This document shows, one piece after another, positions 5,498 to 57,163 of a stretch of DNA of 64,000 nt. Position numbers and translations under genes: made by a program. Each line of letters begins with the position of its first letter. The first letter of the stretch is position 1. The notes beneath the pieces are model-generated. The model was given only the letters and a program-made list of their open reading frames with translations, did no database searches and had not been told where the DNA came from. Location: assembly GCA_902537665.1 (NCBI GenBank), contig CACBCE010000003.1:58630-122629 (forward strand), read 5' to 3'. This DNA is from an uncultured Pelagibacteraceae bacterium. GTDB lineage: Bacteria > Pseudomonadota > Alphaproteobacteria > Pelagibacterales > Pelagibacteraceae.

Positions 5498-5715
5498 AAC
5501 CACCTGAACATCCCGATAATTGCTGCAGTAGCATAAAAGAATTGTAAAAATAATATTCCTCTGTGACCGCCCCTATAAGCCCAAATTCCAATTAGGATTG
5601 CAGATATAAGTAATAAACAAAAACCAAAAAACTCTATGCCAATATTCATAGCTACAAATAATGAATATAATATAGCAGTTATAACTCCTGCCCATTCAAA
5701 AATTTTATTATTCAT
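5494..5715 (-). CDS. Small hypothetical membrane protein (73 aa)
   Basis: ORF, two TM segments; start overlaps the end of the upstream small ORF by 8 nt (ATGAATAA). Confidence 0.65.
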   Translation of the reverse strand: MNNKIFEWAGVITAILYSLFVAMNIGIEFFGFCLLLISAILIGIWAYRGGHRGILFLQFFYATAAIIGMFRWF

Positions 5716-5845
5716 TTTCTAATTTGAATTTTTTTCTATTATAAATTTTTTTTTTATTTTTTACTATTTTATTTCTGAGCATTGGTGAGCTCAATAATTT
5801 AGCCATTGGATTTTTCTTTTTAATTTTTTTTCTTTTTTTACTCAT
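5708..5845 (-). CDS. 45-aa basic protein, ArfA-like (alternative ribosome-rescue factor A) candidate
   Basis: Own translation: MSKKRKKIKKKNPMAKLLSSPMLRNKIVKNKKKIYNRKKFKLENE*. ATGA overlap with upstream gene stop (5842-5845), 8-nt overlap with downstream start; core LLSSPMLRNKIVKNKK resembles E. coli ArfA LLHDPLFRQRVEKNKKG (recalled). Not in ORF track. Confidence 0.6.
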   Translation of the reverse strand: MSKKRKKIKKKNPMAKLLSSPMLRNKIVKNKKKIYNRKKFKLENE

Positions 5846-46071: not shown

Positions 46072-46652
46072 TTATAATTATCTAAATATTTTTTAATTTT
46101 TTCAACTGGAAGCCCCATTATTGTATTCTCATTTCCATTAATGCTTAAAAATAAATTTCGCCCCTCACCTTCTATTTGATAAACATTATAAGCATATAAC
46201 GCTTCATCAGAAATTTTTGCTAAGTAACTTTTAAGCTCATCTTCTCTCATTTTTTTCATTGTCAGAATTGCTTTATCCGTATGATTCCATACCATATATC
46301 CGTTTTTAGATATACATACTGAACTAATTAAATGATGTTTTTTACCATTAAGTTTTTTTAAAATTTCTAAAGCTTCCTCTCTATTTTCTGGTTTTGATAT
46401 TAATTCTCCGTCTAAATCGATAACACTATCAGCACCTAAGACTAAATTATCAGTAAATTTTCCGCTTATCTTATTAGCTTTTAATTCAGCTAAATTTTTA
46501 GATATTAATTCTGGTGATGCTTTCTCTTTTAGCAAACTTGATTTAACAACATCCTCATCAATGTTGGATGGTTTTACTTCATTTAAAATATTATGTTCAT
46601 CAAGAATTTTCTTTCTAACTTTGCTTTGAGAAGCTAGAATAATTTTAAGCAT
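46068..46652 (-). CDS. maf: Maf-like nucleotide pyrophosphatase
   Basis: ORF 194 aa; LASQSKVRKKIL, LGADSVIDLDG, YQIEGEG. Confidence 0.94.
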   Translation of the reverse strand: MLKIILASQSKVRKKILDEHNILNEVKPSNIDEDVVKSSLLKEKASPELISKNLAELKANKISGKFTDNLVLGADSVIDLDGELISKPENREEALEILKKLNGKKHHLISSVCISKNGYMVWNHTDKAILTMKKMREDELKSYLAKISDEALYAYNVYQIEGEGRNLFLSINGNENTIMGLPVEKIKKYLDNYK

Positions 46653-47469
46653 TTTCTTTATAAATTTCGTATATTTTTATTACTGAAGCAGCTGTTTCCT
46701 CTACAGATTTCCTTGTTACATCAATTGATGGCCATTTATATTTCTTAAAAGTATTTCTTGCCATGTCTACCTCCTTTTTAATCTGCTCCAAATCGGTATA
46801 TAATTTATTAGTATTTTCTTTAAGAGAATTCATTCTGTTTTTTCTTATTTCAACTAGCCTTTCTGGTTCGGTGTTTAATCCTATAACGCATGAAGTTTTT
46901 GGATTTTGTTTTAAAACTTTAGGAATAGAGTCCTCGGTAATTAAGGGTATGTTAGAAGTTTTAAGTCCTTTATTTGCTAGAAAAATAGCAGTAGGTGTTT
47001 TGCTTGTTCTGCTAACTCCCAATAAAATTATATCAGATTCTTTTATTTCTTTAACAAGATTGCCATCGTCATGATTCATTGTAAACTGAATTGCTTCAAT
47101 TCTTTTATAATAATCTTCGTCAAGAGCGTATTGACCACTTGGTTGATGTGAGGCCTTCTGGTTTAAAAGTTTAGAAAAACTTAAAATTAAATCACCCAAT
47201 ACTCCGAAACATGGAATTTTTTTTATATCACTATTTTTAGCGAGATATTTCGCCAAATTACTATCAACTATAGAATATAAAATTATAGAGCTTTTTTCTT
47301 TTTCTGCGTTTTCTAAAATTTTTAAAATTTGATTTTCCGTTCTTGTAAAAGAATAAGTGTGTATTTTATAGTTTATATTTTTAAATTGAGCTTTGATAGC
47401 TGTAAATATACGATCCAAGGTTTCACCAGTCGCATCTGATATAAGGTAAATTTGATATAAATTACTCAT
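46645..47469 (-). CDS. Kinase/pyrophosphorylase (PEP synthetase/PPDK regulatory protein, DUF299)
   Basis: ORF 274 aa; IYLISDATGETLDRIFTAI, DIILLGVSRTSKTPTAIFLANKGLKTSNIPL. Confidence 0.95.
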   Translation of the reverse strand: MSNLYQIYLISDATGETLDRIFTAIKAQFKNINYKIHTYSFTRTENQILKILENAEKEKSSIILYSIVDSNLAKYLAKNSDIKKIPCFGVLGDLILSFSKLLNQKASHQPSGQYALDEDYYKRIEAIQFTMNHDDGNLVKEIKESDIILLGVSRTSKTPTAIFLANKGLKTSNIPLITEDSIPKVLKQNPKTSCVIGLNTEPERLVEIRKNRMNSLKENTNKLYTDLEQIKKEVDMARNTFKKYKWPSIDVTRKSVEETAASVIKIYEIYKENA

Positions 47470-47751
47470 GTATAATATGTGTATAAATTTGTATTATCAT
47501 TATCATATTGAACATCTTTCATGTTTTTAAATTTATGTTGTAAAACAATGCTTTTATTAACAATATCAAACATGTTGAAGTCTAAAATAATCATTTAATG
47601 TATTTAGTTAATAAGCTTCAATTTTACGTATATATTTATTAAAATTTAAACTCTAAATGTTAACAAACTGTTTATAAAATGTTTAATAAATTTAATCACC
47701 ACTATTCACAGATTATACTAACATTACAATTAAATATATTTAATTATTAAT
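47470..47751. other. Candidate chromosomal replication origin (oriC)
   Basis: 282-bp AT-rich intergenic gap between divergent PPSR and hemE; perfect DnaA-box match TTATACACA (minus, 47478-47486), near matches CTATTCACA (+, 47702-47710) and TTATAAACA (minus, 47669-47677). Confidence 0.65.
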
Positions 47752-48753
47752 ATGTCTCCACTTGAGGAAGTTATAATAAATAAAAAAAGTAATATAAATC
47801 CTGTTTGGATAATGAGACAAGCTGGAAGGTATTTACCAGAATTTAGAGAAATTAGGAAAAAAAATCCAGATTTTATAAAATTATGTCTTAATGAAAAACT
47901 ATCAAGTGAGATTACTCTTCAGCCTTTAAAAAGATTTGACTTAGATGCAGCAATAATTTTTTCTGATATTTTAATGTTACCATATGGTTTAAATCAAAAT
48001 GTCGAGTTTAAAAAAAATGTGGGTCCATTACTTGGTGAACTAGATTTAATAAAAATTTCAAAAGTTGAAGAAATTAACTTTGTTGAAAAACTTTCTCCTG
48101 TTTACGAATTAATTAAATTAGTAAGTAATTCTCAATTTACGAATAATAAAACCACTATAGGCTTTGTTGGAGCACCATGGACCTTATTAGTGTATATGAT
48201 GAACAAAAAGTCACCAAAACTAAATTTAGATGAAAACTTTTTTGAGGATAAATTTTTAATCGATAAAGTTCTTAAAATCTTAGACAAATTTTTAAAAATA
48301 CACATTAAGAATCAGATTGATAACGGTGCTCAGATAATTCAAATTTTCGATAGTTGGGCTGGCTTGCTAAAAGAAAAAGATTTACGTTATTATATTTATG
48401 ACCCTACATTGAGTTTGGTTAACTATATAAAATCTTTAAATGTGCCTGTTATTTGTTTTCCAAGAGGCATTAAAAATTATAAAGATTTTTGTGAAATTGT
48501 TAAACCAGACACAATATGTATTGATTATGAGATTGACCCAATAAAAATTAGTAAAGAAATAAAAATTCCTGTGCAAGGTGGAATGGATCCAAAGTTTTTG
48601 CTTTCTAATAAAGAAAGCCTGAAAAAGGAGGCAACAAAATATCTAGATATATTTAAAGATCACCCATATATATTTAATTTGGGACACGGTGTTTTACCAG
48701 AGACAGACCCTAATATGATGGATTATCTAGTAAAAACTGTGAAAGATTATTAA
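47752..48753 (+). CDS. hemE: Uroporphyrinogen decarboxylase
   Basis: ORF 333 aa; PVWIMRQAGRYLPEFRE, DAAIIFSDILMLPYGL, GHGVLPETDP. Confidence 0.97.
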   Translation: MSPLEEVIINKKSNINPVWIMRQAGRYLPEFREIRKKNPDFIKLCLNEKLSSEITLQPLKRFDLDAAIIFSDILMLPYGLNQNVEFKKNVGPLLGELDLIKISKVEEINFVEKLSPVYELIKLVSNSQFTNNKTTIGFVGAPWTLLVYMMNKKSPKLNLDENFFEDKFLIDKVLKILDKFLKIHIKNQIDNGAQIIQIFDSWAGLLKEKDLRYYIYDPTLSLVNYIKSLNVPVICFPRGIKNYKDFCEIVKPDTICIDYEIDPIKISKEIKIPVQGGMDPKFLLSNKESLKKEATKYLDIFKDHPYIFNLGHGVLPETDPNMMDYLVKTVKDY

Positions 48754-54883: not shown

Positions 54884-55530
54884 TGGATAACTTAATTTTA
54901 AATTTTTATTCTAAAATTTCCAATTTGAATGTTTCACGTGAAACTTGTAATGAGCTTGAGAGCTTAATTGCGATGATACAGGAAAAAAATCGGAAAATTA
55001 ACATTATAAGTAAAAAAATGTATGAAAAAGAGGCAATAAGAGAGCGCCATATAATAGATTCAGCGCAAATAATTGATTTTGTTGATTTAAATTCCAATAC
55101 AACCTCAGATTTAGGAACGGGTGGTGGAATGCCTGGATTAATAGTGGCTATAGTGATGAAAAAAATTAAAAATGACCTTAAAGTAAACCTTTATGAAAAA
55201 AGTTACCACAAGTGCGCTTTCCTTAAAGAAGTTTCAAAAAAATTAAATTTAAATACAGAAATTATTCAGAAAGATATTTTTTCACTTAAAAACATTGAAA
55301 CAGGAACAATTATGTCCAGGGCGTTTAAGCCAATGCCTGTGATTTTAAACTTGGTTAATGAAAATTTTAAAAAATATAAAAATATTATTTTTTTTATGGG
55401 AAGTAGTGGAAGAAAAATTCTTAATGAAACACTTCAAGAATGGGATTTAAATTATGAAGAAAAAAAAAGTTTAACGAGTGATGACTCGTTTATATTAAAT
55501 ATCAAAAAAATTAAAAAAAAAGTTTCATGA
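54883..55530 (+). CDS. rsmG: 16S rRNA (guanine527-N7)-methyltransferase
   Basis: ORF 215 aa; NIISKK, RHIIDSAQI, DLGTGGGMPGLIVAI; between mnmG and parA. Confidence 0.93.
   Translation: MDNLILNFYSKISNLNVSRETCNELESLIAMIQEKNRKINIISKKMYEKEAIRERHIIDSAQIIDFVDLNSNTTSDLGTGGGMPGLIVAIVMKKIKNDLKVNLYEKSYHKCAFLKEVSKKLNLNTEIIQKDIFSLKNIETGTIMSRAFKPMPVILNLVNENFKKYKNIIFFMGSSGRKILNETLQEWDLNYEEKKSLTSDDSFILNIKKIKKKVS
54930..54945. promoter_or_regulatory. parS centromere-like site inside rsmG
   Basis: TGTTTCACGTGAAACT; 15/16 match to recalled canonical parS TGTTTCACGTGAAACA. Confidence 0.9.
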
Positions 55531-56321
55531 AAATTATTTCAATTATAAATCAAAAGGGTGGGGTTGGAAAAACAACAACTGTTATCAACTTGGCATCGGC
55601 GTTATCTCAACTTGGTAAAAAAATTTTAGTAATCGATCTAGATCCTCAAGGAAATGCTACTACAGGACTGGGATTATCTAACACCTCCCAATCTGATCAG
55701 ACAATTTATGGGATTCTCAATGGCACAATGTCAATTTCAAACGTGATCAAAAAAACAGACTTTCAAAATCTTGATTTAATATCATCCAATGTAGATTTAT
55801 CCGGATTAGAGGTGGAAACGGCTGGTGACAGCGATAGAGCCTTCATACTTAAGACTAAATTAACCTCTTATTTAAATGATTCTAGAGGATTATATGATTA
55901 TATACTTATAGACTGTCCTCCCTCTTTAAGCCTATTAACAGTAATGGCTTTAGTATCATCTAATTCATTGCTTGTGCCACTCCAAACGGAGTTTTTTGCA
56001 TTAGAGGGACTTACACAGCTAATGAAGACTATCGAGAGAATTAAAGCCAACTTAAATCCTGAATTAGAAATTCAGGGCATACTTTTAACTATGTATGATC
56101 GAAGAAATAAACTTTCATCGCAGGTCGAACAAGAAGCAAGAGACTATTTCAAAGACAAAGTTTATCAAACAGTAATACCTAGAAACGTAAGATTATCCGA
56201 AGCTCCATCGCACGGAATTCCAGTTCTGATTTATGATAAAAATTGTCCAGGAAGCAAATCCTATTATAGTTTTACAGATGAGTTTATGGCACAGGAAAAT
56301 AAAATTGGGAGTGCAGCATAA
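55527..56321 (+). CDS. parA: Chromosome-partitioning ATPase ParA
   Basis: ORF 264 aa; IINQKGGVGKTTTVINLASAL, VIDLDPQGNATTGLG. Confidence 0.97.
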   Translation: MKIISIINQKGGVGKTTTVINLASALSQLGKKILVIDLDPQGNATTGLGLSNTSQSDQTIYGILNGTMSISNVIKKTDFQNLDLISSNVDLSGLEVETAGDSDRAFILKTKLTSYLNDSRGLYDYILIDCPPSLSLLTVMALVSSNSLLVPLQTEFFALEGLTQLMKTIERIKANLNPELEIQGILLTMYDRRNKLSSQVEQEARDYFKDKVYQTVIPRNVRLSEAPSHGIPVLIYDKNCPGSKSYYSFTDEFMAQENKIGSAA

Positions 56322-57163
56322 TGAACAAAATTAAAAAAGGATTGGGTAGAGGATTATCTTCCTTAATTGGTGAAACTAAGGTTGAGGATAAAACAAATAA
56401 TCTAAGTTTGGCTGAGATAGTTCCGAACAAATATCAACCAAGAAAAAATTTTGATGAAGAAAACTTAAATGATTTGGTTAATTCAATAAAAGAACTGGGT
56501 GTTATTCAGCCAATTATAGTTAGAAGATCTAATACGAACAATTCTAAATACGAAATTATAGCTGGAGAAAGAAGATGGTTGGCGGCGCAAAAAGCAGGAC
56601 TTCATGAAATTCCTGTAGTTGTTACAGACGCTGATGATCTAAAATCTTTAGAATTCGCAATTGTTGAAAACGTTCAGCGACATGATCTAAATCCTTTAGA
56701 GGAAGCACAAGGCTATAAAAGATTGATAGATGAATTTGCATATGATCAAGATAAAGTATCAAAATTTATAGGTAAGAGTAGAAGCTATATTTCTAACTCA
56801 TTAAGGTTACTTAATTTACCAAAAGAAGTTCTTGATTTTGTAGAACAGAAAAAGATTACCGCTGGTCATGCAAAGATATTAGTTGGGTTGGATAATGCTG
56901 TTTTTTTGGCAAATAAATTTATTGAAAAAAAATTATCTGTAAGACAAGCAGAAAATTTAGTTAAAATATTTAGAAAAACTAAAAGAAATACTACAAGCAA
57001 AGTTGATTCAAATATTCGTGATTTAGAAAATTCTATATCTGAAAAAATTGGACTTAGTGTTTCTATTAAGAATAATAAAAACAATAAAGGCACTATATCA
57101 TTTTATTACAAAGAGCTTGATCAATTAAATAAGATAATCGATATAATTAAGTCTGGATACTAG
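56321..57163 (+). CDS. parB: Chromosome-partitioning protein ParB
   Basis: ORF 280 aa; KKGLGRGLSSLIGE, NKYQPRKNFDEENLNDLVNSIKELGVIQPIIVR, GERRWLAAQKAG, ENVQRHDLNPLEEAQGY. Confidence 0.97.
   Translation: MNKIKKGLGRGLSSLIGETKVEDKTNNLSLAEIVPNKYQPRKNFDEENLNDLVNSIKELGVIQPIIVRRSNTNNSKYEIIAGERRWLAAQKAGLHEIPVVVTDADDLKSLEFAIVENVQRHDLNPLEEAQGYKRLIDEFAYDQDKVSKFIGKSRSYISNSLRLLNLPKEVLDFVEQKKITAGHAKILVGLDNAVFLANKFIEKKLSVRQAENLVKIFRKTKRNTTSKVDSNIRDLENSISEKIGLSVSIKNNKNNKGTISFYYKELDQLNKIIDIIKSGY

Follow-up and report, generated by a model that had tools for sequence, protein, structure and literature searches.

The 282-bp intergenic gap at positions 47470-47751 of the window (the whole 64-kb stretch of DNA analysed) is very probably oriC, the one site from which the chromosome of this SAR11 (Pelagibacter) bacterium replicates in both directions. 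This prediction was retained because the gene context, the selection acting on the gap together with its fixed length, the DnaA boxes recovered de novo, the top-ranking box cluster, the single parS and the switch in strand asymmetry all agree. Conservation, box enrichment, position and the skew switch could each be computed, and the initial annotation, which had proposed a probable chromosomal origin here, is now supported by several independent computational lines. The gap appears to be a good prediction of a known type of origin, rather than a new class of element, with the CtrA brake sites missing.

Genomic context of the gap

The gap is bounded by the ATG starts of a PF03618 gene on the minus strand and of hemE on the plus strand. 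Its GC content is 17%, compared with about 29% for the whole window; the exact length and AT-richness given in the initial annotation are both confirmed. The main features of the locus are as follows.

46645..47469, minus strand: PF03618/COG1806 gene (kinase/pyrophosphorylase), left boundary, E=1.6e-87
47470..47751, no strand: predicted oriC, whole intergenic region, from its fixed length and conservation
47752..48753, plus strand: hemE, right boundary, PF01208 E=5.7e-82
54930..54945, no strand: parS TGTTTCACGTGAAACT, the sole parS of the window, 7.2 kb from the gap
55527..56321, plus strand: parA, best family AAA_31 (E=4.9e-64), assigned from context since it adjoins parB
56321..57163, plus strand: parB, with ParB_N, HTH_ParB and ParB_C domains

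Beyond hemE, the gene order is rho, mnmE, mnmG, rsmG, parA, parB, so that parABS and mnmEG-rsmG do lie nearby as first described, with parS at 54930. In four relatives parS is found 7-10 kb from the hemE-side gap, and no second good parS was detected in the window or in the sampled parts of relatives. The absence of dnaA from the 64-kb window is confirmed, and the rRNA operon suspected head-on to the left of the gap does not occur in the window. Two earlier statements hold in part. The gap had been called the largest intergenic one, which is roughly correct, except that a 344-bp stretch at 5498-5841 exceeds it if an ORF of 50-80 aa is left uncounted. The flip in gene orientation is clear locally, but orientation becomes mixed farther left. 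The resemblance to the hemE-side origin context of Caulobacter and Rickettsia agrees with the published hemE/COG1806 context (PMC1914354).

Conservation across relatives

The relatives compared were the 80 best found with the PF03618 protein, all of them Pelagibacteraceae/Pelagibacterales genomes. Of these 80 loci, 79 allowed a measurement: in most of them the gap is 282±1 bp long between the same two ATG codons, and over five genera of Pelagibacteraceae its length ranges from 261 to 289 bp. The gaps share a mean identity of 0.78 with that of the window, whereas fourfold sites in the neighbouring PF03618 gene reach 0.43, which implies strong purifying selection on the gap. Two loci from one further SAR11 genus (L238 and L239, genomes G004 and G005) have no close hemE, and the PF03618 gene faces rho. 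The gap before the PF03618 gene is there 353 bp long and keeps TTATAAACA, with CTA triplets after a spacer that contains GC. These hemE-less loci argue that the box/CTA element would not be part of hemE.

Apart from the boxes described below, two blocks of the gap are nearly invariant:

47537..47547, no strand: conserved block GTTGTAAAACA, mean conservation 0.93
47612..47622, no strand: conserved block TAAGCTTCAAT, conservation 0.96; the de novo search returned AGCTTCAAT 25 times versus 0.0 expected

Neither of them matches a DnaA, CtrA or IHF consensus, and both may be candidate sites for some further binding factor.

DnaA boxes

Five sites of the gap resemble DnaA boxes:

47478..47486, minus strand: predicted DnaA box TTATACACA; TTATTAACA or TTATCAACA at the same place in relatives
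47554..47562, plus strand: predicted DnaA box TTATTAACA, within the block of highest conservation in the gap (47552-47562, conservation 0.975)
47658..47666, minus strand: degenerate DnaA box TTGTTAACA, which reads TTATTAACA in the consensus as well as in the closest complete relative
47669..47677, minus strand: predicted DnaA box TTATAAACA, one mismatch, in tandem with 47658-47666
47702..47710, plus strand: predicted DnaA box CTATTCACA, one mismatch; TTATTCACA in G055 and many others

The initial annotation had named a perfect box on the minus strand (47478-47486) and two one-mismatch sites (47669-47677 and 47702-47710). All three are present, but its inventory overlooked a fourth box at 47554-47562. 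From left to right, the layout reads as two boxes, the block TAAGCTTCAAT, a tandem pair of boxes, the final box (47702-47710) and then an AT-rich tract extending to hemE.

With the canonical consensus TTATNCACA, no excess is seen in the window (3 versus 3.9 expected), and sites with at most one mismatch number 4 in the gap versus 1.3 expected (P=0.037). Canonical boxes, taken from the window sequence alone, are weak evidence for an origin, and the case was therefore made with relatives. De novo 9-mer counts over 66 dereplicated gaps put TTATTAACA at the top (104 versus 4.4 expected), with TTATTCACA (33 versus 0.4-0.6) and TTATCAACA (18 versus 0.5) also enriched; all three are DnaA-box forms of TTATNCACA, position 6 being often A. 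In a set of 29 strongly dereplicated divergent gaps, 65 boxes were counted versus 4.8 expected, with a shuffle maximum of 12. The lineage box set TTAT[ACT][AC]ACA occurs three times in the window gap, a number reached by just 9 of 5000 shuffles. The gap is also the best cluster of this set in the window, in 870 kb of G015 and in 588 kb of G012, and again within 200 kb around hemE in G055. In G020 it is not the best box cluster and holds a single exact box. The features shared with published hemE/COG1806 origins are thus the flanking orthologues, a DnaA-box cluster exceeding both chance and the rest of the genome, and the AT content.

The SAR11 DnaA carries the domain IV residues RPRQ and the NRDHTT helix-turn-helix signature, which are the usual ones by comparison with the E. 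coli protein. Since these residues are preserved, the A at box position 6 probably reflects tolerated binding and not a new DnaA specificity.

Position on the chromosome

The genome to which the window belongs is fragmented (1.04 Mb in 26 contigs, 81% complete), and the skew was therefore taken from relatives. Their raw cumulative GC skew shows a broad flat minimum between about -45 and +35 kb round hemE and a maximum about half a genome away, which is too flat to place the origin precisely. A corrected skew was thus used, based on T and A at fourfold-degenerate sites with gene strand as a covariate, in three complete relatives (G015, G012 and G055). The T-A switch falls at -20, 0 and 0 kb from hemE, respectively. 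With the three genomes combined, the best switch is at 0 kb (about ±5 kb), and the fit loses 1.6 log units at -5 kb and 3.3 at +5 kb. G015 alone favours -20 kb, 0 kb being 3.3 log units worse. The strand-asymmetry switch expected of a bacterial oriC is therefore found at 0±5 kb in the combined relatives; a switch elsewhere on the chromosome had been named as the observation that would count against the origin, and the corrected one lies within about 5 kb of hemE.

A first strand-corrected fit, with a forced positive leading-strand sign, placed the origin on the opposite side; this fit was discarded, as the unconstrained version gave the same breakpoints with the sign reversed. On the leading strand, fourfold sites have A>T after gene-strand correction in G015, G012 and G055. 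The usual proteobacterial leading-strand T-A direction is the opposite one. Fourfold G-C skew is noisy, and its sign differs between genomes. Atypical skew parameters were reported for this low-GC group in a 2007 survey (PMC2031905). As for coordinates, the complete genome G002 (contig C1) is apparently numbered from dnaA (match at base 382), with its hemE start at 1,090,023 of 1,160,202, which puts a hemE-side origin about 70 kb from dnaA. The G055 genome is 1,308,759 bp long and has hemE at about 335.5 kb.

Alternative readings of the gap

A gap between two diverging genes must contain promoters, and promoter-like matches do number 11 versus 6.3 in shuffles. The region could accordingly be only a bidirectional promoter/leader of the PF03618 gene and hemE, with the origin elsewhere, for example at dnaA, where the 2007 skew survey, which included Pelagibacter, set the origin whenever dnaA and the skew switch were no more than 7% apart (PMC2031905). 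This is very unlikely, as dnaA lies about 63 kb from hemE, a position worse by about 38 log-likelihood units with the three genomes combined. Moreover, a promoter needs neither arrays of DnaA boxes, nor a fixed 282-bp length, nor a chromosome-wide asymmetry switch, and the box and CTA features are retained in front of the PF03618 gene even where rho has taken the place of hemE.

A skew switch marks either an origin or a terminus, and placing the origin at the gap does turn the corrected T-A skew (leading strand A>T) against the direction common in proteobacteria. The origin was nevertheless chosen because of the outward gene-strand bias, parS and the box content. In the relatives, most coding sequence is directed away from hemE on both arms, parS and parAB lie beside hemE with no other good parS in the sampled parts, and DnaA boxes cluster at the gap. 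It is hence scarcely credible that the gap marks a terminus or some other breakpoint of the skew and that the origin sits about 600-700 kb away. The high conservation of a noncoding stretch would also suit a structured RNA leader or a small RNA gene, which seems just as improbable: an Rfam search of the gap gave no family even at E=1, and what is conserved in the gap (17% GC) consists largely of DnaA-box forms on the two strands.

Proposed unwinding side and initiation

Returning to the predicted origin, its hemE side carries a further element:

47718..47732, plus strand: DnaA-trio-like triplets CTA-ACA-TTA-CAA-TTA, AT-rich, on the hemE side

Within the last 45 bp of the gap, divergent relatives carry CTA triplets in a 3-nt register (21 in phase, with 2.25 expected). 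Since the DnaA-trio 3'-GAT-5' reads CTA on the complementary strand (PMC8235120, PMC8287927), opening on the hemE side was proposed. However, the score for contiguous DnaA-trios is barely over that of shuffles (2.61 versus 2.28), so that the CTA triplets following the last box are only suggestive of a DnaA-trio-like unwinding element.

From these features, we infer DnaA binding, the opening side and initiation at the gap as follows. DnaA would bind four to five boxes of the TTATTAACA/TTATTCACA type spread through the 282 bp and would advance from the box at 47702-47710 over the CTA-type triplets in the direction of hemE. Opening would then take place in the 35-40 bp of AT-rich DNA adjoining the start of hemE, where DnaB helicases would load. 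One fork would leave leftward through the PF03618 gene and the other rightward through hemE, parS and parAB, to meet a terminus about half a genome away. Regulation would probably fall to DnaA and its inactivators rather than to CtrA, with a possible part for GcrA/CcrM.

CtrA, IHF and GcrA/CcrM

No CtrA protein was found over the curated cut-off in 8 genomes (best 148 bits versus 350), which one of 14 control genomes did pass; the absence of CtrA in P. ubique has already been published (PMC7987155). One CtrA candidate, picked by its size and by its neighbour gcrA in one genome, was rejected when the family search identified it as PhoB. TTAA-N7-TTAA is in no clear excess in the gaps of relatives (28 versus 18.6±4.2 expected) with none in the window, and TTAACCAT is absent from the gaps examined. 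The SAR11 gap thus lacks the CtrA sites that figure in the published description of hemE/COG1806 origins. Since some accepted origins of this kind also have no CtrA sites (PMC1914354), it may be regarded as a known kind of origin with a notable loss. An IHF consensus is present in 13 of 66 relatives' gaps versus 5.2 expected, with none in the window copy; IHF/HU genes are present. The site methylated by CcrM, GANTC, is rarer in 66 origin gaps than chance would predict (1 versus 7.8 expected). GcrA is encoded in SAR11 genomes, and CcrM has been reported in SAR11 (PMC3973325).

Implications

It is quite possible, although slightly on the doubtful side, that the SAR11 origin is a minimal, length-fixed alphaproteobacterial variant that has lost CtrA control and combines low-affinity-type TTATTAACA boxes with interrupted DnaA-trios. 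If so, the amount of DnaA alone would set initiation, and GcrA/CcrM might act elsewhere than at the origin. A small origin free of CtrA sites, in a group without the standard alphaproteobacterial cell-cycle repressor, offers a testable case. Few bacterial groups of the sea are as abundant as SAR11. Estimating its growth from metagenome coverage requires the position of the origin to be known, and an origin located at base level would provide a fixed anchor; the one predicted here lies about 63 kb from dnaA, where the rule of the skew survey would place it. No prior description of a SAR11 oriC was found in the literature searched, although DoriC may list one.

Comparison with known origins

The Caulobacter crescentus Cori resembles the SAR11 gap in its hemE/COG1806 flanks, its AT-richness and its DnaA boxes. 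In Caulobacter, parS and parAB also lie a few kb from Cori, as they do at the SAR11 gap. The SAR11 boxes are mostly TTATTAACA, unlike those of Cori. Cori moreover has an IHF site and five sites for CtrA (PMC1914354), a protein missing from SAR11, and no IHF consensus occurs in the window copy. Rickettsia origins share with SAR11 the same flanking genes and an AT-rich gap of a few hundred bp, and the location between hemE and COG1806 found in Caulobacter and Rickettsia is the presumed ancestral arrangement (PMC1914354). Rickettsia origins, however, keep CtrA sites, in contrast to SAR11 with neither a CtrA protein nor a clear excess of sites. In DnaA-trio origins, a short GC spacer separates the DnaA box from 3-nt repeats that show CTA on the strand of the box (PMC8235120, PMC8287927); this GC cluster is clear only in other genera (GACC, GGACC) and not in the window copy. 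As in the DnaA-trio origins of Bacillus subtilis and Helicobacter pylori, a box is followed by CTA in a 3-nt register with the same polarity (PMC8235120, PMC8287927), the SAR11 triplets differing in being interrupted, often at every second one.
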